Positions 19,556 to 46,626 of a stretch of DNA of 64,000 nucleotides are shown one piece after another. This DNA is from Asanoa hainanensis (GTDB lineage Bacteria; Actinomycetota; Actinomycetes; Mycobacteriales; Micromonosporaceae). The notes under the pieces were generated by a model, which saw nothing but the letters and a program-made list of their open reading frames with translations, did not search any database and had not been told where the DNA came from. A program made the translations under genes and the position numbers. Each line of letters starts with the position of its first letter. Position 1 is the stretch's first letter. The DNA lies in assembly GCF_900188485.1 (NCBI RefSeq), contig NZ_FZPH01000020.1, positions 62,001 to 126,000 of the forward strand. The letters are read 5' to 3'.

Positions 19556-19723
19556 GTGCCGCCGAATCGCCGGCCCGCGCCGCGCCCGTCCCCCGGGCGC
19601 CACGACGACCCGGGCCAGGTAGGCGAATCGGGGACCCAACCGAGCACTGGGGTGAATCCGCGCGGTTCGCGCGGTAGGGCGTCCTTCTCGTCCGAATCCG
19701 TCAGCTAACCCGGTAGGCGGCCG
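19556..19723 (+). ncRNA. c-di-AMP (ydaO/yuaA-type) riboswitch
   Basis: The element carries the conserved ydaO core in order: CCGAATCGC near 19562, GGCGAATCGGGGACCCAA at 19622-19639, TGGGGTGAATCC at 19648-19659, GGTAGGGCG at 19673-19681, CCGAATCCGTCAGCTAACC at 19692-19710, and GGTAGGCGGC at 19712-19721. GCCGCC (19558-19563) can pair with GGCGGC (19716-19721) as the closing stem. In actinobacteria this class sits before cell-wall hydrolase genes, exactly as here; c-di-AMP binding normally turns expression off. Confidence 0.93.
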
Positions 19724-19741
19724 CGGGAGAAGGGTCTGCCT

Positions 19742-36861: not shown

Positions 36862-38334
36862 TCAGCGGCTATTGGGTTTGTCGATGTGTCCGGCCTCTGA
36901 ATTGGTCTGGTCCCGGGATTCGTCGATCGGGTTTCTTGCCGTCACTTCCGCTCGGTCTTCGAGGAGTTTGTGGAGGCCGGAGATGTCGCGCGGGGAGGTT
37001 CGGGAGGCCAGCCAGTACATGATGCCGGTCGGGACGAAGAAGAGCTGGAACGCGGCCAGGCCGACCGAATAGTTCAGCGGTGACGCGTAGCGGGACGCCA
37101 GCAGGGCGAAGGCCACCGGGATCAGGCCGTTGCCGGCCGCTCGGCCTACGCCGTTGGTCAGGTTGCCCAGGCTGTAGACCGTGCCGCGGTATTCGGGTGG
37201 GTTGACGTCCGCGATCAGGGCGAACCAGTTCGGGGAGTTGGCCGAGGTCATGGCCAGCGCGATGATCGCGATCAGGAACGTGATGCCGACGCTCGGCTCC
37301 GTGACCACGCTGCCCAGGGCCGAGAGGACCACCTCGCCCGTGCCGGCGTTGACCGGCACGTCGATCTTGAACGGCAGGAAGAACAGGACGACATAGAGCG
37401 GCACGGCGGCCAGTACGCCGACCGAGGCGACCAGGGCCCGGCCGCGCAGGGTGCGCCGTTGCAGCTTGTCGCCGAGCATGCCGCCCAGGATCGAGAGCGC
37501 GCCGCCGAGCTGGAACATCGTCGCGAAGATGCTGCCCACGATGATCGCCGTGTCTTCCGGGTAGCCCTGGGAGATCGCGCGCTCCCGGAACAGCACCGGG
37601 AGCCAGACCAGCGAGCCGAACGCGATCTGGGCGGGCAGGCCTTGGAGGATCAACCAGACGTTGGTACGCCGGTGCACGATCGCGGGCAGGCTCTTGACGC
37701 TGATGCGGTAGTCGTATTCGTGGCCCTCGGCGATCGTCCCCGCCAGCTCCGGGTCGCTCTGGCCGCGCCGGATGTCGTAGGTGAAGAAGTAGGCGACCGT
37801 GGCGATCAGGCCGACCGCGCTCAGCACCACGAACGGGCGTCGCCAGTCAGCCGCGCCGAGGATGCCGCCGAGGCCGGTGCCGAGGAACGTGCCGATGCCC
37901 TGGGAGAGGCCCCAGAGGCTCATCACCAGGCCCCGGCGCTTCGGCTTGATCAGGTCGCTGACCACCGAGAAGCCGACCGAGCTCACCGCGCCGAGGCCGA
38001 CCGCGGCGGCGACCTGGGAGACGAAGAACAGCAGATAGTTGCCGGCCACCGCGCTGCCGGTCATGCCGGCCGCCCAGAGCAGCGTGCCGATCATGAGTAG
38101 CGGCTTGCGGTTGCCGCGGTCGCCGTAGTACGCCCAGGCGACCGAGGCGATGGCGCTGACCAGGAACGACGTCGCGGTGACCGTGCCGACCAGGCCCAGC
38201 GGCACGTCGAACGAGTCCGCGATCGACCCGTAGAGCGGCGGCACGAGGCCGACCGCCACGTTGTCGAGCGAGGCCAGGACGATGAACACCACGACGCTGT
38301 AGATCCGGTGCACCCGGCCCCCGGTGGTGGTCAC
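36862..38334 (-). CDS. MFS transporter
   Basis: 490 residues, 12 membrane helices. The family loop between helices 2 and 3 reads WAYYGDRGNRKPLLMIG, and the equivalent later motif is GGMLGDKLQRRTLRGR. A long cytoplasmic central loop (YDIRRGQSDPELAGTIAEGH) separates the halves. The hydrophilic tail ends in HIDKPNSR. It resembles Spinster-like lipid/sugar-phosphate exporters (GVGRAAGNGLIP), but the substrate is not predictable. GTG at 38334. It is oriented like the adjacent LysR-type gene and separated from it by 35 bases. Confidence 0.88.
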   Translation of the reverse strand: MTTTGGRVHRIYSVVVFIVLASLDNVAVGLVPPLYGSIADSFDVPLGLVGTVTATSFLVSAIASVAWAYYGDRGNRKPLLMIGTLLWAAGMTGSAVAGNYLLFFVSQVAAAVGLGAVSSVGFSVVSDLIKPKRRGLVMSLWGLSQGIGTFLGTGLGGILGAADWRRPFVVLSAVGLIATVAYFFTYDIRRGQSDPELAGTIAEGHEYDYRISVKSLPAIVHRRTNVWLILQGLPAQIAFGSLVWLPVLFRERAISQGYPEDTAIIVGSIFATMFQLGGALSILGGMLGDKLQRRTLRGRALVASVGVLAAVPLYVVLFFLPFKIDVPVNAGTGEVVLSALGSVVTEPSVGITFLIAIIALAMTSANSPNWFALIADVNPPEYRGTVYSLGNLTNGVGRAAGNGLIPVAFALLASRYASPLNYSVGLAAFQLFFVPTGIMYWLASRTSPRDISGLHKLLEDRAEVTARNPIDESRDQTNSEAGHIDKPNSR

Positions 38335-38369: not shown

Positions 38370-39434
38370 CTAGCTTCGTTGGGTCGGGATCGGTGTGGCG
38401 GATGTGAGCGGCGCGCCGGATATCCGGTGCGGGCCCCGGTCGAGGTGGGCGACGCCGGCCCGGAGTGCCTCGATCACCGGGCGCAGCTCGAGCTGGTGCG
38501 CGTCGCGGACAGTCACGCAGGTCTCCATCCGCAGCGGCGCGGAGCCGGCGTGGATCGGGACCCACTTGAACCGGTCGGCGTCGCCACCGCCGAACATCAT
38601 GCCGGCCTTGTACGGCAGCGCGACGTCGGAGGGCACCACCAGGATCCGGCCCCGGCGGCGGCCCGGCCGGCGGTGCTCACTGCGCAGCCGGATCACGCTC
38701 GTGGCGGTCTCGTAGGTCTCCATCGCGACCCGGCAGGCCGGGTCCGGGTCGGGGATGCCGGCCGCGATGATCGCGTCTTCGAGCACCCGCCGGGCCCGCA
38801 CGTCGCGGGGCTGGAGGAACGCCTCGTAGTCGCTGACGAGCTCGGCCAGGGTGAGCCGGTCGTCCGGGAAGTCGCGGTCGATCATCGCCTCGAGGCGGGC
38901 CTCGTAGAGCCGGGTCGACCGCAGGCCCGGCCGGCGCACCGACGGGCCGATGATCAGGTGGAACTCGTTGCGCAGCAGGCGGTCGACCGGGTCGCCGTAG
39001 AACTGGTGCTCGGCCCGGAGCGGCTGCGACAGGTATTCGACCAGGAGCTTGTCGCCGGTCTCGGCCGACCGCAGCCGGTCCTCGGCGAGCGCGACGAACT
39101 GCGTGTGGTGCGGCCCGCAGGCCAGCGTCCAGATCGTCGGGGCGGCGGCCGCGGCGCCGATCCGCTCGTGCAGCGCGACTACCTGGCGCGCGATCCGCAG
39201 GACGCGCTCGCCGGCCGGGGTCAGCAGGTAGCGGCGGTCGACGTTGCGGCGCACCACGGGCTCGCCGACATGACTCTCGATCTTGGCGATCCGGTGCTGG
39301 ACGGACTGCCGGCTGTATCCACCGTGGAACCCGGCCATCCGGCGGGCGGCGTCCTCATAGGAGCGCTCTTCGGCGAGCGCGATGAACGCCCGGAAGTCCC
39401 ACTCGTCCAGTGGTTTCGGGCGTTGTTTTGACAT
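38370..39434 (-). CDS. LysR-like transcriptional regulator (module A)
   Basis: 354 residues. The N-terminal winged helix is LysR-like: FIALAEERSYEDAARRM, YSRQSVQHRIAKIESHVGEPVV, YLLTPAGERVLRIARQVV. The C-terminal 240 residues form an effector domain (ACGPHHTQFVALAEDRL, PVDRLLRNEFHLIIGPSV, LVSDYEAFLQPRDVRARR, FKWVPIHAGSAPLRM) that is unlike the common LysR substrate domain. Module B at 40203 encodes a close paralogue, alignable end to end. ATG at 39434. Divergent to a small helical protein, with conserved boxes between. The first-strand order suggests autoregulation and control of the partner. Confidence 0.82.
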   Translation of the reverse strand: MSKQRPKPLDEWDFRAFIALAEERSYEDAARRMAGFHGGYSRQSVQHRIAKIESHVGEPVVRRNVDRRYLLTPAGERVLRIARQVVALHERIGAAAAAPTIWTLACGPHHTQFVALAEDRLRSAETGDKLLVEYLSQPLRAEHQFYGDPVDRLLRNEFHLIIGPSVRRPGLRSTRLYEARLEAMIDRDFPDDRLTLAELVSDYEAFLQPRDVRARRVLEDAIIAAGIPDPDPACRVAMETYETATSVIRLRSEHRRPGRRRGRILVVPSDVALPYKAGMMFGGGDADRFKWVPIHAGSAPLRMETCVTVRDAHQLELRPVIEALRAGVAHLDRGPHRISGAPLTSATPIPTQRS

Positions 39435-39782
39435 CCGTTCAACGTAACGTCGCGGCGCGGAGACCAGAAGTGTCACATTGACGATACGAAGTGCCGGTGG
39501 CGGTTGTTACGCAGGGAAATCGCTCTCCGGCTAAAATATGATCTGCGTCACTATCTGCATTAGCACCGCTTCCACTTTATCCGGATTTATCGGGCGCAGG
39601 CCACGTTACGTTCCGTCGAACATTACCCAGCGCGAATCTCGTGCAAGCGCACGTTGCAGTTGCCCAGAGACCTGCCGGTACGCGGGCGCGGTCCGACGGT
39701 CCAAAAGGGAGTAGAAAGACAGAGCGGCTGCTCCGCTGGTGTCGGAGCAGCCGCGACCAGCCCTACCGGTCGAGGAGCCGAC
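39435..39782. promoter_or_regulatory. Module A divergent control region with boxes shared with module B
   Basis: 348 bases without a gene. AAGTGTC-N4-TGACGATACG lies at 39468-39488, 33 nt from the regulator ATG. GTTGTTACG is at 39503-39511. A TATGAT -10-like element lies near 39535. A 36-base block beginning ACGTTACGTTCCGTC is at 39603-39638, with an inverted ACGTTACGTT copy at 39441-39450. All but the last have a counterpart at the same relative place in module B. Confidence 0.7.
39724..39754 (+). promoter_or_regulatory. Conserved leader hairpin, module A
   Basis: GCGGCTGCTCCG (39724-39735) pairs perfectly with 39743-39754 around CTGGTGT. It ends 28 nt before the ATG at 39783 and is preceded by AAAGGGAGTAGAAA. 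The same stem, preceding sequence and 28-nt spacing occur in module B. Confidence 0.75.
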
Positions 39783-40151
39783 ATGTCCCGGGTCAGCGAG
39801 AGCGTTGCGAAATGCCCTCCCCTGCTTCGACGTTGGCGCCGTGCGCTCCGCGCTCCCTCCGCAGCCTCACACACCGACGCGCCAGGCAACGCACATCGGG
39901 TACGTCGGCCGCGGCCGGTCGCGGCCCCGGCAGGTCATCTGGACAGCGCGATCTCCGAGGTGCATGCGGCCCGGGTCGCGATGCGCAATGCCCTGCTCGC
40001 GCTCGACCAGGCGATCGGCGACGGCGAACGGTTCGACGAAGCGTTCCGGCGGCTGGTCGACACCGAGATCAACGGCACGCGCGAAGAGGCGGCCATCCTG
40101 AGCGCGATGCTGGCCACCGCCGATCAGGCGGGCCCAGCCGCCGCCGCGTGA
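39783..40151 (+). CDS. Small protein with C-terminal helical domain shared with module B
   Basis: 122 residues. GAGGAG lies six bases before the ATG at 39783. The N-terminal 60 residues are Arg/Pro/Ala-rich and without match here. The C-terminal 65 residues (AISEVHAARVAMRNALLALD, then FDEAFRRLVDTEINGTREEA) form two amphipathic helices and are clearly homologous to the module B protein at 42081. I do not recognise the family. A start further inside, nearer the conserved domain, cannot be excluded. The gene faces the module A regulator and is convergent with the module B regulator. Confidence 0.65.
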   Translation: MSRVSESVAKCPPLLRRWRRALRAPSAASHTDAPGNAHRVRRPRPVAAPAGHLDSAISEVHAARVAMRNALLALDQAIGDGERFDEAFRRLVDTEINGTREEAAILSAMLATADQAGPAAAA

Positions 40152-40202
40152 ACCGGAGCCATCCAGAGCGCAAGCGTGCGATCGCCGGACGCAATCCGGC
40201 GC

Positions 40203-41264
40203 CTAGCGGCGCTGCGAAGGCAGCGCCCGAGAAGAGGCCAGCGGAGTGCCCGAGATCGGGTGCGGCCCCGCGTCCAGAGTGGCCACTCCAGCCTGGAGTT
40301 CCTCGATAACCCGCCGCAACACGGTGGCGTCGTCTTTGCGGATAGTCACATAGGTCGGCATGCTCAGCGGTCCGGACGACGCGTGGATCGGCACCCACTT
40401 GAACCGGCTGGCGCCCCTGCCACCGAACTCCATGCCCTTCTTGTACGGCTGCGCTACGTCGGACGGCACCACCATGACCCGGTTGCGACCGCCCTCCCGT
40501 CGCGCCTCCGTGCGCAGTCGCATAACGATCGCGGCGGTCTCCGTGGTCTCCATCGCAATCCGGGCGCCGCCGGGGTCGACCACGTCAGACTGTTGGATGG
40601 CCAGCTCGAGCGCGCGCCTGGCGCGGATGTCCTGCGGCTGAAGCAGCGCCTCGTAGTCACTGACCAAATCGCTGAGAGACAGTCGATCGCCTCGGAACCG
40701 CCGCTCGACCATCGCCTCCAGTTGGGCGCGGTACAACGGGATCGAAAGCAGGCTGGATTTGACGACCTCAGGGCCGATGATCAAGCGAAACTCTTGACGA
40801 ACCAGCCGGTCGACGGGCTCACCCTGGAACTGCTCCTCACCGCGCGCAGTGCGCTCGAGATACTCGACCCGGATCTTGTCGGCGTCGCCGTTCTCCGCAC
40901 GCAGACGGTCAGCGGCGAGCGTGACGAACTGGGTGTGGTGCGGTGCACAGGCAAGCGTCCAGAGCGGCGGCTCGACAGGTCCGGAGTCGATCCCGTCGTA
41001 CAGCGCGACAAGGCGCCGGGCGACCGACAGGAACGTGTCGCCTGCCGCGGTCAGCGAGTAGGTCCCACCGGCCTTCCGCTGCAATAGCGTCTCGCCGGCC
41101 CAGGCTTCGATCTTTTCGACCGCCCGCCCGACGGATTGGCGACTGTAGCTGCCCCAAACATCGGTGAGTTGGGACGCGGCGGCGCGGTAGCTGCGGTTTT
41201 CCACGACCGCGATGAACACCCGGCAATCCCAGTCGGTGGGCTTATCCCGGTAGTTCTCAGTCAC
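40203..41264 (-). CDS. LysR-like transcriptional regulator (module B)
   Basis: 353 residues, paralogue of the module A regulator. The HTH part reads FIAVVENRSYRAAASQL, YSRQSVGRAVEKIEAWAGE, YSLTAAGDTFLSVARRLV. The effector domain keeps ACAPHHTQFVTLAADRLR, EPVDRLVRQEFRLIIGPEV, LVSDYEALLQPQDIRARRA and FKWVPIHASSGPLSM. Shared motifs run the whole length. GTG at 41264. It faces a membrane-protein gene across a region bearing the same cis elements as module A. The ligand is unknown. Confidence 0.82.
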   Translation of the reverse strand: MTENYRDKPTDWDCRVFIAVVENRSYRAAASQLTDVWGSYSRQSVGRAVEKIEAWAGETLLQRKAGGTYSLTAAGDTFLSVARRLVALYDGIDSGPVEPPLWTLACAPHHTQFVTLAADRLRAENGDADKIRVEYLERTARGEEQFQGEPVDRLVRQEFRLIIGPEVVKSSLLSIPLYRAQLEAMVERRFRGDRLSLSDLVSDYEALLQPQDIRARRALELAIQQSDVVDPGGARIAMETTETAAIVMRLRTEARREGGRNRVMVVPSDVAQPYKKGMEFGGRGASRFKWVPIHASSGPLSMPTYVTIRKDDATVLRRVIEELQAGVATLDAGPHPISGTPLASSRALPSQRR

Positions 41265-41646
41265 TCAACCAACCTAGCGTAATTGGGTCATCACGAAAAG
41301 TGTCGAGATGACGATACGGATCGGTCACATATCGCAGCGTTGTTACGGGGCGTCATCGTCACGCTCAGAGAACGCGCTCTCAGCTGAAAAGTGGCGTGGA
41401 TCACATAAGCGCGGAACATCGGCATGATTTTTAGTCATTTACCGGGCTCAAATCGCCTCAGCGCCTACGTTACGTTCCGTCAAACGCTACCCAACGCGAG
41501 TCACCTGAAAGCAGACGTTGCGGCCGCTCACATAACGGAATGTCATATGCGCCATGCAGACGACCTTCAGGGAGTAGAAATGCAAGGCGGCTGCTCCGCT
41601 TCCACCGGAGCAGCCGCCACATGTCCCGACTGCCTGGAGCCGAAAC
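41265..41646. promoter_or_regulatory. Module B divergent control region with boxes shared with module A
   Basis: 382 bases without a convincing gene. AAGTGTC-N4-TGACGATACG lies at 41298-41318, 33 nt from the regulator start, as in module A. GTTGTTACG is at 41339-41347. The 36-base block at 41467-41502 differs from the module A copy at five positions only. An ATG at 41580 has GGGAG ahead of it and may start a leader peptide running through the hairpin. Confidence 0.7.
41586..41618 (+). promoter_or_regulatory. Conserved leader hairpin, module B
   Basis: GGCGGCTGCTCCG (41586-41598) pairs perfectly with 41606-41618 around CTTCCAC. It ends 28 nt before the ATG at 41647, the same distance as in module A. 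The loop sequences differ while the stem is kept. Confidence 0.75.
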
Positions 41647-42084
41647 ATGCTTACTCCACACCGTACGCGAGAGCACTGGCATATACCCACCCCGTTCTCC
41701 GCTGCCGATGGCGGGCCGATCAGCCTGCGTCTTGCTCGGCCGAACCTCAACTGGCTCTTTTTCGTCGTTGGCGGGATCAACGTGGCGGAGGCCGCACTCA
41801 CCGCGGTACATATGGAGCATCACACAGCGGTGAGAATTGCAGCGCACAGCGTGTCCGTCGCCCTCGCCGTGCTTCTCGCGTGGTGCGTCGACCGCAGCGC
41901 AGCCCGCGAACGGCTCGCCCGAGCCGGCATGGTGATCTCCGCACTCCCAGCGGTATACCTGCCGGCCAGCGAAGGACCGCTTTTGCTGCCGACGATCTTT
42001 ATCGGTGCCGCCGTCGTTGTCACTGTCGCCGGTGAGGTCGGATACCGGGTAAGTCGCAAGTGCCGCTGCGGAGAGCGTTCGTGA
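41647..42084 (+). CDS. Small integral membrane protein of module B, unknown family
   Basis: 145 residues with four predicted helices: LNWLFFVVGGINVAEAALTA, AAHSVSVALAVLLAWCV, MVISALPAVYLPA and LLLPTIFIGAAVVVTVAGEV. The N-terminus and the C-terminal KCRCGERS are charged. GGAG lies eight bases before ATG 41647. It overlaps the following gene by four bases (GTGA). Module A has no such gene at this place, so the membrane component was either gained here or lost there. I do not recognise the family. Confidence 0.7.
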   Translation: MLTPHRTREHWHIPTPFSAADGGPISLRLARPNLNWLFFVVGGINVAEAALTAVHMEHHTAVRIAAHSVSVALAVLLAWCVDRSAARERLARAGMVISALPAVYLPASEGPLLLPTIFIGAAVVVTVAGEVGYRVSRKCRCGERS

Positions 42085-42308
42085 GCGGCGGATACATCGA
42101 GATTGCCGTGTCCGAGGTGCACGCTGCACGGAACTCGATGCGCGACGCGCTCATCGCCCTTTACGACGCGCTCGAATCCGGCGAGGCAATGGATCCCGCC
42201 TTCCGGCGACTGATCTACAGCGAGATCCTCGGTGCCCGTGAGGAAGCCGCCGTGTTGACCGCCCTACTCGTCAACGCCAAACCCGACGCATCCTCGGCGA
42301 AACGTTGA
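42081..42308 (+). CDS. Small helical protein of module B
   Basis: 75 residues from a GTG at 42081, overlapping the membrane-protein stop, with GGAGAG six bases upstream. The two helices AVSEVHAARNSMRDALIALY and MDPAFRRLIYSEILGAREEA match the C-terminal domain of the module A protein at most positions. The charged, heptad-like pattern suggests a small protein-protein interaction domain. The pair of membrane protein and helical protein probably acts together. No function can be assigned. Confidence 0.75.
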   Translation: MSGGYIEIAVSEVHAARNSMRDALIALYDALESGEAMDPAFRRLIYSEILGAREEAAVLTALLVNAKPDASSAKR

Positions 42309-42317
42309 CTGATTAGT

Positions 42318-42348
42318 TGCTCCGCACCGCCCAGGCTGGTGCGGAGCA
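42318..42348. terminator. 11-bp hairpin between convergent genes
   Basis: TGCTCCGCACC (42318-42328) pairs perfectly with 42338-42348 around nine bases. It lies nine bases after the module B stop and three bases before the end of the convergent helicase gene. Confidence 0.8.
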
Positions 42349-42351
42349 TTA

Positions 42352-45300
42352 CTACGTGGGCCGGACGGGTGCGAGGCCGAGTTCCTCGGCCCGGGTCCAG
42401 ACCGCTTCCATCGCCTGGTCCGGGTCGCGGTGGAAGAGGCTCGCGCGCAGGCGCACGAAGACGCAGTTGCCGACCCGCTCCAGGACCGCCTGCCGGCGTA
42501 GTTCGGCCGCGAACGCCGTCGCGCCGCGGTAGCGGTCGTCGCAGGCGATCGCGAGCCGCCGGCCGTCGGGGGCGTTGACCACGAAGTCGATCTCGTACGC
42601 GCCCAGCCGGAACCGGGGCACCGGGCGCAACCCCGCCGCGGTCAGCCGCTGCCACACCTCGCGGGTGAACTCGCTCTCCAGCACCCGCGCGTCGGCCGGC
42701 TCCGGTGCGGGCGCGGGGCGGGTCACGTAGGAGAGCAGCAGCCCGCGGGCGTCGTCCGCGTTGAGGTCGCCGGCCCGCACCGAGTGGAAGACGAAGAGCT
42801 GGTCGCGGGCCCGGGACGCGGCGACGTTGACCCGGCGGTGGTAGTCGCGCTTGGTGAACGCGCCGATCGTGCCGTCGGCCGTGGCGACCACCGTGGACAC
42901 CAGCACCACGTCGCGCTCGTCGCCCTGGAACGTGTACGGGTCGCCGACTCGCAGCGACCGCCGCTCGAGCTCGTCGGTGCCGAGCTCCGCGCGCAGGCGG
43001 TGCTGGAGATAGTCGGCCTGGCCGCTGGTCGAGAGCAGGCTGACCACGCCGATCGTCTTGCCCCGGTACGCGGGGTCGGCCACGATCTCCGTCACCCGGG
43101 CCACCAGCGCCTCGGCCTCGGCGACGTTGACCTCCCCGTACGGAGGCAGGCTCTGGCGGCGGCCGTCCGGCACGTACACGGCGGTGACCGCGGCGTCGAG
43201 CCCGGCCGGCCGGTCGGCGCGCAGCGGCTGGATCTTTCCGTCGTAGTACGTCTCGCTGGAGAACCGGATGATCGCCGGCACGCTGCGGAAGTGCTCCGTG
43301 AGCAGGATCCGCTGCGGCGAGCGGCGCACCGCGTGGTCGTAGAGGCTGCTCTCGGTGTCGAAGTGCACCGCCGACGGCATGCCGGCCGGTGCGAGGTGGG
43401 TGCCGATCAGCGCGTTGACCCGGTCGGCGGGCAGGCCGACGAGCTGCGGGCCGATCTGCTGGTCGTCGCCGACCACCACGGCGCGGTGGGCCAGGCCCAG
43501 CACCGGCAGCGCGAAGATGTCGGCCTGCGAGGCCTCGTCGACCACCACCACGTCGAAGATCGGGCCGGCGCCGGGGAACTGCTCCAGCGCCCGGTCGACC
43601 GACATGATCCACACTGGAACGGCCGTGGCCGCCTCCGTCATCGCCCGTTGCGCGGCGGCCTGCCAGTGCGCGGCGGTCTTGCCGGTGCCCTTGCCGATCT
43701 TGCGGAGTGCGGCGGTCCAGTCGGCCAGCGCCGCCTTGCGCCGGTCGTCCAGGGTGCGGGCGACCTCCAGCCAGGCCGAGCCGACCACCAGCTCGCCGGT
43801 CAGCCGGCGCTCCTGGTCGCGGGCCCGCTCCAGGCGCCGGGCGAGCTCACCGTCGCCGACTCCCCCGGTCACCTCGTCGAACCAGGTCTGCGCCTGCCGC
43901 CACGACCAGGCCCGCAGCGCGGCCTCGCCGCCGCCGTCGGGAGCCACGCCCCGCTCGTACGCGCCGGCCCACCCCGGTGCGACGTCGGCGAGCCGGGCGT
44001 GCAAGGCGGCGTACCGCTGAGCGTCCGGCCGGACGCCCCACAGCCGGCGGATCTCGGCGACCGCGCCGTTCCAGGCGACCGCGTCCTCGGCGGCCCAGGC
44101 CGCGGCCAGTGCGCGGAGCACCGGCGGTGCCCCGGGCGCGGAGGTGGCCTGGTCCAGCCAGCCGGCCATCGCCTCGTGCGTCGCCTCGACGCGGTCGACG
44201 GTGAACACCGCCGACGCCTGCTCGGCCAGGTCGGCGAGCTCGGCCAGCGCCGGGGCGTCGACCGCGCGGGGACACGCCGGGACGAGCACGGCCAGGTTGG
44301 CGCGCAGGGCGGGCCAGCGGCGGCTCTCCCAGTCGAGCGCGTCGAGCGCCTCGGCGAGCAGTTGGCCGGCCCACAGCTCCGGCTCGCCGCCGTGCTGCCC
44401 GGGTGTCGGCGCGCCCAGACGGGCGGACCACTCCGCCCAGCGGGCGGCGAGCTGGGCCCGCAGCTGCTCCCGCTCCACCCAGGCGACCAGCAGGTCGACG
44501 TCGGCGACCGTACGCGGCTGCTCGTCGTCGACCTGGCAGTCGGCGAGCAGCTTGGCCAGGTCGCCGTGGGTCAGCCGGCGGACCGGCTTCCCCGCGGCGA
44601 ACCGCTCGCGGATCTGGCCGAGTTGGGCGAGCAGCCGGCGGGGCTGCCCGGCGTGCTCGGCGCCGATGTCCAACCGGTGGCCGGACAGCGCGGCGGTGCG
44701 CCGGCCCAGCTCGCCCAGCATCGACCGGCTCGCCGCCACCTGCTCGTCCCAGACCGCCTGCCAGCTCGGCTCGCGGATCAGGTGGCCGAGCCGGTCGGTC
44801 CAGCTGCCGGCCCGCCGGGCCAGCGTCTCGGCCGCGGCGCGCAACGCGCCGGCCAGCTCCTCGACGCCGTCCGGGCCCAGCCGGCGGGCGCCGTCCGGGT
44901 CGACGCCGCGATCCCGGGCCTGCTCGACCACCTTGGCCGCGTCACCGAGCGCCGCCCGCTGTGCCGCGACCGCCTCGCCGGAGGGCAGCGCGCCGTCGGC
45001 CGGCAGGTCGGCCAGCGCGTGCGCCCGGTCGGCCGGCGAGATCGCCCGCGCCAGGTCGCCGAGAAGCCCGAACTCCCCCGCCGTCAGCGGGGCCGGCAGC
45101 CCCGGCGGCACCGGGTCGGGCACGATGCCGTCCGCCCGCGTGCGGCGCAGCCACTCACCCACCTCGGCGGGCGAGGAGGGCACACCGCGGATCGGGTACG
45201 TGGTCGCCTCCCGCTCGGCCACCGCCAGCAGCTCGTCGCGGGCCGCAGCGAACCGGCCGTGTGCCGCGTCGATCTCGTCGGTGGTCCGGGCGACGTCGGC

Positions 45301-46626
45301 GGCCGCCACCGGGCGGTCGAGCGTGGCGGCGCGGTCGGACAGCTCGCGGGCGGCGATCTGCAACTGGACGAGCTGGTCGGCCGAGCGGCCGAGGACGGCC
45401 AGGCAGAGCGGCTGGAGCTCGGCGGGCAGCCCGTCGCGGAGCACCCGCAGCGGGTCCTCCTTCTGCGCCAGGACCAGCACGCGCTTGCCGTGTGCGACCA
45501 GGTGACAGATCAGGTTGCGGATGGTGTGCGTCTTGCCGGTGCCCGGCGGGCCCTGCACGGCCACCGTCCGGTGCGCGGCCAGCCGGGCCGCGATCGACTC
45601 CTGCGCGTCGTTGGTCGCCATCGGCATGAGCAGCCGCTCGCCGGTGCGCACCCAGGCGTCCGGGTCGTCGTCGGGCATCCGCAGCGCGCTGGGCTCGTGC
45701 GCGAGGATGCCGGCCAGTGCCCCGACCGCGCCGCCGCCGGGCGCGGCCAGCCGGTCGCGCTCGGCCTCCAGGAACCGGCGGACCATCCGCTGGCGCGGGC
45801 GCAGGAAGAGCACGCCGGTGTCGTGCACGTGCGGCTCGTCCAGCGGGTCTGCGCCGAACCGCAGCTTCGGCTCGAAGCCCAGCCGGCGCAGCGCCCGGTC
45901 GGCGAACTCCTGCCGCTCGGCCGCGTCCCACGGGTCGATGTCGACCTGGCCGCCCGGCGCGGCGAGGTCGAGCAGGTCGCCGACCCGGCGGTTGTCGAGC
46001 CCGCCGAGCGCGTCGACCTGGAGGCGGGCCGGACCCTGCGGGTGCACGGTGACGGTGGTGGTCTCCGGGTCGTAGTCGATCGCGACCGGCGTCGCCAGCA
46101 GCGGATAGCGCACCGGCTCGCCGCCGACGGGGGCGTCGAGGATCGCGTGGCCCCAGACGAGCTCGACCCGGGCGGAGTCGACGTCGACGCGATAGCGCAG
46201 GTCGTAGAGGCGGTCGTGCAACGCCCGGGCGGCGACGGCGTTCCGGAAGGCGGTCGCCCACGGCCGCCACTGCTCGTCGAGCCAGGTCGTAAACGCAAAG
46301 GTGCGGGTCTCGTCGTGGTCGCCCTGCAGTGTCGGCGGGTGGTCGGGCGTCAGATCCCAGGCCAGGTGGCGCAGCAGCGCGTTCGGGATCGACGGCGCCT
46401 GCGGCGGCATGGGCCGGCCGACCCGCAGCCAGCCGCCGCCGGGCTGCCGCGGGCCGAGCTCGACCGCGGGGTGCGTGGGCAGGTCGTGCTGCCAGAACGC
46501 GTCGCCCGTCGGCACCGCGCGAACCGGCTTGTCGAGCAGCGCCCGCACGGCGAGCAGGTACTCCGCGAGCGCTACGGCACGCTCGCGGATCTCGTGTGGC
46601 GCGTCGGCGCCCTCCGGCTGCTCCAT
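42352..46626 (-). CDS. Large SF1 (UPF1/DNA2-like) helicase with C-terminal REase-like domain
   Basis: 1424 residues. A mixed N-terminal domain (1-340) precedes AAA_11-type motor elements: Walker A GPPGTGKTHT near 359, a 600-residue helical insertion (about 400-1000), Walker B VVVDEASQADIF near 1027, LLTEHFRSVP, DPYTFQGDERDVVL near 1234 and VNVAASRARDQLFVF near 1272. The C-terminus (about 1335-1424) resembles the Vsr/MTES_1575 nuclease fold: AYEIDFVVNAPDGRRLAIACDD, where the usual IECD-type Glu is Ala. COG1112 helicases fused to nucleases include antiphage proteins, so defence is possible but unproven. ATG at 46626. No partner gene is evident. Confidence 0.87.
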   Translation of the reverse strand: MEQPEGADAPHEIRERAVALAEYLLAVRALLDKPVRAVPTGDAFWQHDLPTHPAVELGPRQPGGGWLRVGRPMPPQAPSIPNALLRHLAWDLTPDHPPTLQGDHDETRTFAFTTWLDEQWRPWATAFRNAVAARALHDRLYDLRYRVDVDSARVELVWGHAILDAPVGGEPVRYPLLATPVAIDYDPETTTVTVHPQGPARLQVDALGGLDNRRVGDLLDLAAPGGQVDIDPWDAAERQEFADRALRRLGFEPKLRFGADPLDEPHVHDTGVLFLRPRQRMVRRFLEAERDRLAAPGGGAVGALAGILAHEPSALRMPDDDPDAWVRTGERLLMPMATNDAQESIAARLAAHRTVAVQGPPGTGKTHTIRNLICHLVAHGKRVLVLAQKEDPLRVLRDGLPAELQPLCLAVLGRSADQLVQLQIAARELSDRAATLDRPVAAADVARTTDEIDAAHGRFAAARDELLAVAEREATTYPIRGVPSSPAEVGEWLRRTRADGIVPDPVPPGLPAPLTAGEFGLLGDLARAISPADRAHALADLPADGALPSGEAVAAQRAALGDAAKVVEQARDRGVDPDGARRLGPDGVEELAGALRAAAETLARRAGSWTDRLGHLIREPSWQAVWDEQVAASRSMLGELGRRTAALSGHRLDIGAEHAGQPRRLLAQLGQIRERFAAGKPVRRLTHGDLAKLLADCQVDDEQPRTVADVDLLVAWVEREQLRAQLAARWAEWSARLGAPTPGQHGGEPELWAGQLLAEALDALDWESRRWPALRANLAVLVPACPRAVDAPALAELADLAEQASAVFTVDRVEATHEAMAGWLDQATSAPGAPPVLRALAAAWAAEDAVAWNGAVAEIRRLWGVRPDAQRYAALHARLADVAPGWAGAYERGVAPDGGGEAALRAWSWRQAQTWFDEVTGGVGDGELARRLERARDQERRLTGELVVGSAWLEVARTLDDRRKAALADWTAALRKIGKGTGKTAAHWQAAAQRAMTEAATAVPVWIMSVDRALEQFPGAGPIFDVVVVDEASQADIFALPVLGLAHRAVVVGDDQQIGPQLVGLPADRVNALIGTHLAPAGMPSAVHFDTESSLYDHAVRRSPQRILLTEHFRSVPAIIRFSSETYYDGKIQPLRADRPAGLDAAVTAVYVPDGRRQSLPPYGEVNVAEAEALVARVTEIVADPAYRGKTIGVVSLLSTSGQADYLQHRLRAELGTDELERRSLRVGDPYTFQGDERDVVLVSTVVATADGTIGAFTKRDYHRRVNVAASRARDQLFVFHSVRAGDLNADDARGLLLSYVTRPAPAPEPADARVLESEFTREVWQRLTAAGLRPVPRFRLGAYEIDFVVNAPDGRRLAIACDDRYRGATAFAAELRRQAVLERVGNCVFVRLRASLFHRDPDQAMEAVWTRAEELGLAPVRPT

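Follow-up and report, generated by a model that had tools for sequence, protein, structure and literature searches.

A LysR-type regulator with divergent membrane and helical partner genes in Micromonosporaceae, and its probably reduced sister copy in Asanoa hainanensis

The window analyzed here, a 64,000-nucleotide stretch of contig NZ_FZPH01000020.1 from the 8.64 Mb genome of the soil bacterium Asanoa hainanensis, holds two neighboring copies of a gene module in which a LysR-type regulator faces, across a common intergenic region, a divergently transcribed gene or operon for small proteins. In copy B the regulator RegB stands opposite a four-helix membrane protein (TM) and a helical protein (smallB); in copy A the regulator RegA stands opposite smallA, a helical domain with an Arg/Pro-rich N-terminus in place of TM. 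This layout of genes is firmly supported, and the function proposed for it is inferred. The reading preferred here, to which we give roughly an even chance as a whole scheme, is a LysR-type sensor-regulator with a divergent membrane/helical operon for transport or protection. The regulator would be made from a leaderless mRNA and would bind a small ligand and the common intergenic region, switching the target operon. TM, partnered by the helical protein, would either transport the ligand or shield the membrane from it or from some linked stress. Copy A would have arisen by duplication, after which most of its TM gene was lost and the helical domain was fused to a new Arg-rich N-terminus. A hairpin before each target start would probably halt minus-strand transcripts short of the regulator promoter, namely those running from a downstream helicase gene across the helical gene and from regB across smallA.

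The five reading frames of the two copies, proposed in a first-pass annotation of the window, are confirmed at the positions listed in Table 1, and the main features of that description hold. RegA and RegB align end to end with 200 identities in 351 columns (57%, E 9e-130), and the helical domains that they face are homologous, with 57% identity across 63 residues (E 3e-23). Copy B does add a membrane protein, and the TGA stop of its gene overlaps the GTG start of smallB (GTGA), an overlap that suggests translational coupling; copy A does carry the Arg/Pro-rich segment instead. The intergenic DNA of the two copies can be aligned as well. It contains common blocks: AAGTGTC..TGACGATACG close to the regulator, then ACGTTACGTTCCGTC, then a GC-rich hairpin ahead of the target start. 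AAGTGTC lies at a constant distance from the regulator start in all 8 Asanoa copies, and the ACGTTACGTTCCGTC block is near-identical across all 6 copies A.

Distribution of the module and its partners

A search of 354 Micromonosporaceae genomes from 44 genera, at an E-value of 1e-15 or better, places regulators of this family at 19 loci, spread over 15 genomes and 6 genera. At 17 of these 19 loci a TM and/or helical partner is encoded divergently. Between 5 and 14 candidates were scored in each genome in these family-wide searches (5 for the regulator, 14 for the helical protein). TM stands opposite the regulator at 10 loci (G000B, G004B, L026, L027, L028, L053, L054, L055, L056, L057). At 7 others (the six copies A and L052) the regulator faces a helical protein but no full TM, and at 2 (L029, L058) no partner is recognized. 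TM and the helical gene are both present at three loci (G000B, G004B, L053), each time with the GTGA stop-start overlap, and at L052 the same overlap joins a C-terminal remnant of TM to the helical gene.

The association also holds when viewed from the partners. Among the 354 genomes the TM profile detects 17 domains, which fall at 12 loci in 11 genomes; a family regulator lies opposite at 10 of the 12. At the TM locus in G387 the opposite gene encodes an XRE-type helix-turn-helix protein, while the match in G287 is weak (E 3.8e-6) and has no family regulator within the stretch examined. A TM homologue that faces such an XRE-type gene (L076, 7761-10339; E 3.1e-24), the product of which also has probable membrane segments, suggests that the TM family may pair with another type of regulator as well. 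All 10 strong matches to the helical profile (E 5.2e-28 or better) lie opposite a family regulator; the 3 weak ones, at E 0.002 to 0.008, look unrelated in the frames viewed. Beyond the family, the TM profile matches 1 of 396 phylum-wide genomes (11 candidates scored per genome) and the regulator profile, at E 1e-30, 1 of 366 (5 candidates scored per genome), in both cases the genome of origin only, a depth of scoring that distant relatives may escape. The first-pass annotation had held that the arrangement would be no more than a local duplication if the small genes lacked homologues and the neighborhood lacked conservation. The spread of the regulators over 6 of 44 genera, with partners recurring alongside, rules out a purely local duplication.

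Within Asanoa, copy A is found in all 6 genomes between MFS and GH13 genes on one side and the large helicase gene on the other, and its regA is 84.6 to 94.9% identical between this genome and the 5 others. Copy B occupies an identical position in 2 of the 6 genomes (G000, which is the present one, and G004), so that RegB has an orthologue in 1 of the 5 other genomes. The module had been described as kept twice side by side; this is true of these two genomes and not of the other four, and copy A is probably a reduced form. In the regulator tree A and B are sister groups, with support of 91/100 for A+B, 98/100 for A and 100/99 for B. Duplication followed by loss of B elsewhere and an early transfer both fit this tree. 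Third-position GC in copy B lies below that of its neighbors (regB 0.819, TM 0.705 and smallB 0.763, versus 0.937 for the MFS gene and 0.964 for the helicase gene), and smallA is also low at 0.789; these low values may reflect relaxed or foreign codon use.

The regulator, the membrane protein and the helical protein

Both regulators carry the N-terminal winged helix of LysR proteins, HTH_1, above the cut-off (Table 1). In the AlphaFold model of RegB (predicted local distance difference test score 85.6, 14 sequences) a linker helix is followed by a predicted two-lobed effector domain of the periplasmic-binding-protein-like type, as in LysR proteins. Foldseek aligns this model with full-length LysR proteins over about 330 columns, the best match being OxyR (E 6.3e-18) and the next CbnR. 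The TM-scores of 0.37 to 0.57 on the query, among the matches listed, indicate that the domains of RegB fit better individually than in their relative placement. The Pfam LysR effector-domain model matches neither RegA nor RegB, and in a profile search of the PDB the match of the regulator to LysR proteins is confined to roughly the first 118 positions. Judged by sequence, the effector domain is diverged. It includes a CxPHH motif, not fully invariant in the regulator alignment, which we take to lie near the usual location of LysR ligand-binding residues. A metal role was considered for this motif and for a His found in the first loop of certain TM proteins; because the Cys and one of the His residues vary, it is left as a guess. 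Matches of the regulator to NCBIfam helix-turn-helix models include ArgP-type models, far below cut-off, and in PHROGs the regulators match one unannotated family, chiefly at the helix-turn-helix end.

A fixed spacing between the -10 element and the start codon is a signature of leaderless transcription. TANNNT lies at exactly -12 to -7 in 16 of 18 regulator genes, a count that omits L029. The two exceptions are L053, which fits from its upstream ATG, and L058, which does not. The background rate is 45 of 16,995 ATG/GTG triplets, mostly not gene starts. This pattern suggests that the regulators of the family are probably translated from leaderless mRNA, and the fixed 6-nucleotide spacing from TANNNT to the start makes them a clean candidate for leaderless translation.

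The first-pass annotation had recognized neither of the two small families, and neither TM nor the helical protein matches a Pfam or NCBIfam family at cut-off. TM likewise matches no transporter family at cut-off. A fold search of the PDB with TM gives no confident relative, which does not imply a new fold, and PHROGs gives a weak match (E 0.027). The TM alignment has invariant columns at R31, P32, A74, R92 and E130, with helix 1 spanning residues 35-53. Tandem doubling is known among small transporters, and the TM domain is tandem-doubled at 5 loci. The four helices, the doubling and the LysR layout together make transport or membrane protection the first choice of function. The TM homologue at L054 (10973-11698) is extended at its C-terminus by about 90 residues, possibly the equivalent of the helical protein in fused form.

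Of the phrase "sensing or exclusion", by which the module had first been characterized, sensing is reasonable for the predicted LysR fold, while exclusion finds no counterpart in the searches. None of the five module proteins matches a PADLOC defense family at E up to 0.1, and single-query searches found no relative of RegB in plasmids, no relative of TM in phages and no match to the helical profile in viral contigs. A phage, plasmid or defense origin is rejected on these results, those for plasmids, phages and viral contigs coming from one query each.

The preferred scheme makes the helical protein a partner of TM. It could instead be a partner of the LysR regulator, in feedback or as an anti-regulator, a reading that is possible though unlikely. 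Such a pairing would account for the retention of regulator and helical domain in copy A after loss of TM; it would also suit the 7 of 19 loci with a helical protein and no full TM opposite the regulator, the purifying selection on smallA described below and the presence of a family regulator opposite all 10 strong helical matches. However, 7 of the 10 TM loci give no helical match at E 0.01 with 14 candidates scored per genome, and the regulator at these loci seems independent of any helical protein.

Hairpins ahead of the target genes and the neighboring genes

The hairpin shared by copies A and B recurs at other loci. Perfect stems of at least 12 base pairs within 130 nucleotides before the start are present in 6 of 14 leaders, versus 116 of 20,000 stretches taken at random from these loci; the 8 leaders without one include G004A, whose stem is bulged, and all 5 doubled-TM loci. 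The stems vary in sequence while their pairing is kept. In all 8 distinct hairpins, which represent 10 copies once the bulged G004A is omitted, pairs 1-11 are standard, and 8 of the 11 pair positions show two to four pair types, although the comparison is not an independent test because L026, L053 and L054 were picked as hairpins. The 14-nucleotide tails were counted for 11 hairpins from four genera (six copies A, two copies B, L053, L054 and L026). T occupies 74 of 154 positions on the regulator-facing strand versus 20 of 154 on the sense side, and the excess is on the regulator-facing side in all 11. Furthermore, a terminator scan of 39380-42400 returns 6 sites where 1.8 are expected and ranks the two module hairpins first, both on the minus strand. 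The hairpin is probably a reverse terminator. A role as a leader RNA element behind the GGGAGTAGAAA motif was considered and dropped, as a T-rich tail on the opposite strand suits a reverse terminator better. The leaders contain no Rfam family at gathering score, a match to naRNA4, at 22.6 bits where gathering requires 59.5, reflects a resemblance between hairpins, and the ATG upstream of the copy B hairpin is not preserved in copy A.

A reverse terminator may merely insulate the promoter region. It could also serve antisense control, a possible though unlikely reading in which an RNA with its 3' end at the terminator would span the target gene with its ribosome-binding site and silence the target. 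Such an RNA would come from convergent transcription (from the helicase gene across the helical gene and from regB across smallA) or would be a dedicated antisense RNA. Consistent with this control are the hairpin tails, which are oriented alike in all 11 cases from 4 genera, and the pairing kept in 8 distinct hairpins with differing stems, as well as the transcription of regB toward smallA. A convergent gene overlaps the last helical gene or ends at most 75 nucleotides from it in 4 of 6 Asanoa genomes (G000, G004, G001, G005) and at L053. The layout is less suited elsewhere: the helicase gene ends 465 nucleotides from the helical gene in G003 and about 2.5 kb from it in G002, and at L054 and L026 the gene that follows downstream runs in the same direction. 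A consensus scan of 39380-42400 found no sigma-70-like site, a result that concerns that promoter type only. Because the reverse terminator sits at the 5' boundary of the target gene, antisense transcription can be tested directly.

The surroundings of the module suggest another rival, in which RegA serves the downstream MFS transporter gene (36862-38334) and the small genes are accessory. The MFS gene does lie downstream of regA on the same strand in all 6 Asanoa genomes. Elsewhere the two part company, which makes this reading improbable. The MFS gene is carried by 25 of 61 relatives and represented in 20 of 54 genera; at the 8 non-Asanoa loci examined, of 19 found, it adjoins GH13, and no module protein was matched within the stretches covered. 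In G020 the MFS and helicase genes are adjacent, about 140 nucleotides apart, and in G035 the MFS gene lies 31 kb from the regulator. The MFS query gives chance-level matches only at 11 distant regulator loci, and in other genera the module has different surroundings. The MFS protein is rejected as a general partner on these grounds, and its loci without the module suggest that the module arrived beside existing genes.

Two other features of the window complete the picture. The large helicase gene (42352-46626, minus strand) encodes AAA_11/AAA_12 domains with an MTES_1575 nuclease-like domain, has partial PADLOC matches (PDC-S37, Mko) and is present in 6 of 6 Asanoa genomes. A riboswitch for cyclic di-AMP (19603-19734, plus strand, 68 bits) precedes a frame with a signal-peptide-like start, the later part of which presumably resembles an NlpC/P60 cell-wall hydrolase.

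Table 1. Coordinates of module genes and intergenic elements in the window
Feature	Position	Strand	Basis
RegA, LysR-type regulator, 354 residues	38370..39434	-	HTH_1 34.3 bits (cut-off 26.6); orthologues in 6 of 6 Asanoa genomes
Putative -10 element TACGTT, 6 nucleotides ahead of regA start; putative leaderless mRNA	39441..39446	-	
Candidate regulator binding site AAGTGTC-N5-TGACGATA, copy A	39468..39486	.	Fixed distance to regulator start
Conserved block ACGTTACGTTCCGTC, candidate smallA promoter region	39603..39617	+	Common to copies A and B
Terminator-like hairpin, 12 base pair stem, facing regA, just upstream of smallA	39724..39754	-	
smallA, helical domain with Arg-rich N-terminal segment PPLLRRWRRAL	39783..40151	+	Open frame in 6 of 6 Asanoa genomes
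RegB, paralogous LysR-type regulator, 353 residues	40203..41264	-	HTH_1 36.9 bits; model resembles full-length LysR regulators
Putative -10 element TAGGTT, 6 nucleotides ahead of regB start; putative leaderless mRNA	41271..41276	-	
Candidate regulator binding site, copy B	41298..41316	.	Intergenic alignment, fixed distance
Conserved block ACGTTACGTTCCGTC, candidate TM-smallB promoter region	41467..41481	+	Intergenic alignment
Terminator-like hairpin, 13 base pair stem, facing regB, just upstream of TM	41586..41618	-	
TM, membrane protein, 145 residues, predicted N-terminal beta hairpin and four helices	41647..42084	+	Structure model; profile matches
smallB, helical protein, GTG start within TM stop overlap	42081..42308	+	Homology to smallA

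Probable reduction of copy A and comparison with known systems

The reading frame of smallA is open from its ATG through the helical domain in all 6 Asanoa genomes, several indels notwithstanding. In G005 a TGA is consistent with an earlier stop of smallA, the frame being open to its own stop past the helical domain. The N-terminus contains LLRRWRR in 6 of 6 genomes, immediately preceded by PPLL in 5 of 6. Pooled Nei-Gojobori ratios of nonsynonymous to synonymous substitution (dN/dS, 15 pairs) are 0.23 for the helical domain and 0.14 for a 13-column block around PPLLRRWRRAL, compared with 0.65 for the linker and 0.43 for the whole N-terminal part, values that are rough given the shortness of the blocks. 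By these ratios the conserved segments of smallA are under purifying selection.

The DNA right after the smallA ATG aligns to the start of the TM gene in a different frame, and against G000B the offset where the alignment begins is 1 modulo 3 in G000A, G001A, G003A, G004A and G005A. In shuffles that preserve composition only, the score against G000B is reached in 0 of 2000 for G003A and 0 of 2000 for G005A, with p values of 0.0035 for G004A, 0.0115 for G001A, 0.016 for G000A and 0.076 for G002A. The p values of the copies A range from 0.0005 to 0.38 against G004B and all exceed 0.15 against L053. These alignments suggest that copy A is probably a reduced module whose former TM gene lost its body. 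They also suggest that the Arg-rich N-terminus of smallA is probably a remnant of that gene, translated out of frame and joined to the helical domain; neither step is proven. The selection on smallA and the sister grouping of A and B in the regulator tree also favor this reading. Simple decay of copy A, with smallA a relic whose open frame is incidental, is very unlikely, for while the TM gene is gone save a possible remnant, the linker has a dN/dS of 0.65 and L052 has another truncated TM before a helical gene, the smallA frame stays open in 6 of 6 genomes despite indels, its conserved blocks have dN/dS of 0.14 and 0.23, and regA remains 84.6 to 94.9% identical between this genome and the 5 others.

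The preferred scheme of a sensor-regulator with a transport or protection operon can be extended to an undescribed LysR-controlled membrane module of Micromonosporaceae with a built-in antisense RNA, ending at the reverse terminator and overlapping the target ribosome-binding site, in which the copy A remnant became a selected N-terminal peptide. This fuller proposal is speculative and, taken as a whole, doubtful. In copy A a segment of a protein may have been gained by out-of-frame reading of the remains of a lost gene, and the intact sister copy B next door allows the two to be compared. More broadly, the module brings a diverged subfamily of LysR regulators together with two protein families as yet without names, all three co-occurring in one bacterial family, and this co-occurrence lets the function of one family be tested through the others.

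A search of the literature, judged from its search results, found no paper on a module of LysR regulator, TM and helical protein, and the nearest known systems each resemble it in part. The LysR regulators OxyR, CbnR, CysB and BenM share with RegA and RegB the N-terminal winged helix, the full-length fold and a divergent target across a common intergenic region. The regulators described here differ in an effector domain without a Pfam match, in the CxPHH motif, in their unnamed target families and in their apparently leaderless expression. Small exporters under LysR control are exemplified by LysE with its regulator ArgP/LysG. This pair resembles the module in joining a LysR regulator to a membrane-protein target, although TM differs in matching no transporter family at cut-off. 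Finally, small multidrug resistance (SMR) transporters have a conserved Glu in the first membrane helix. TM differs from them in lacking a conserved Glu there, but resembles them in its four helices, its size of about 110 residues per domain and its tandem doubling at 5 loci.

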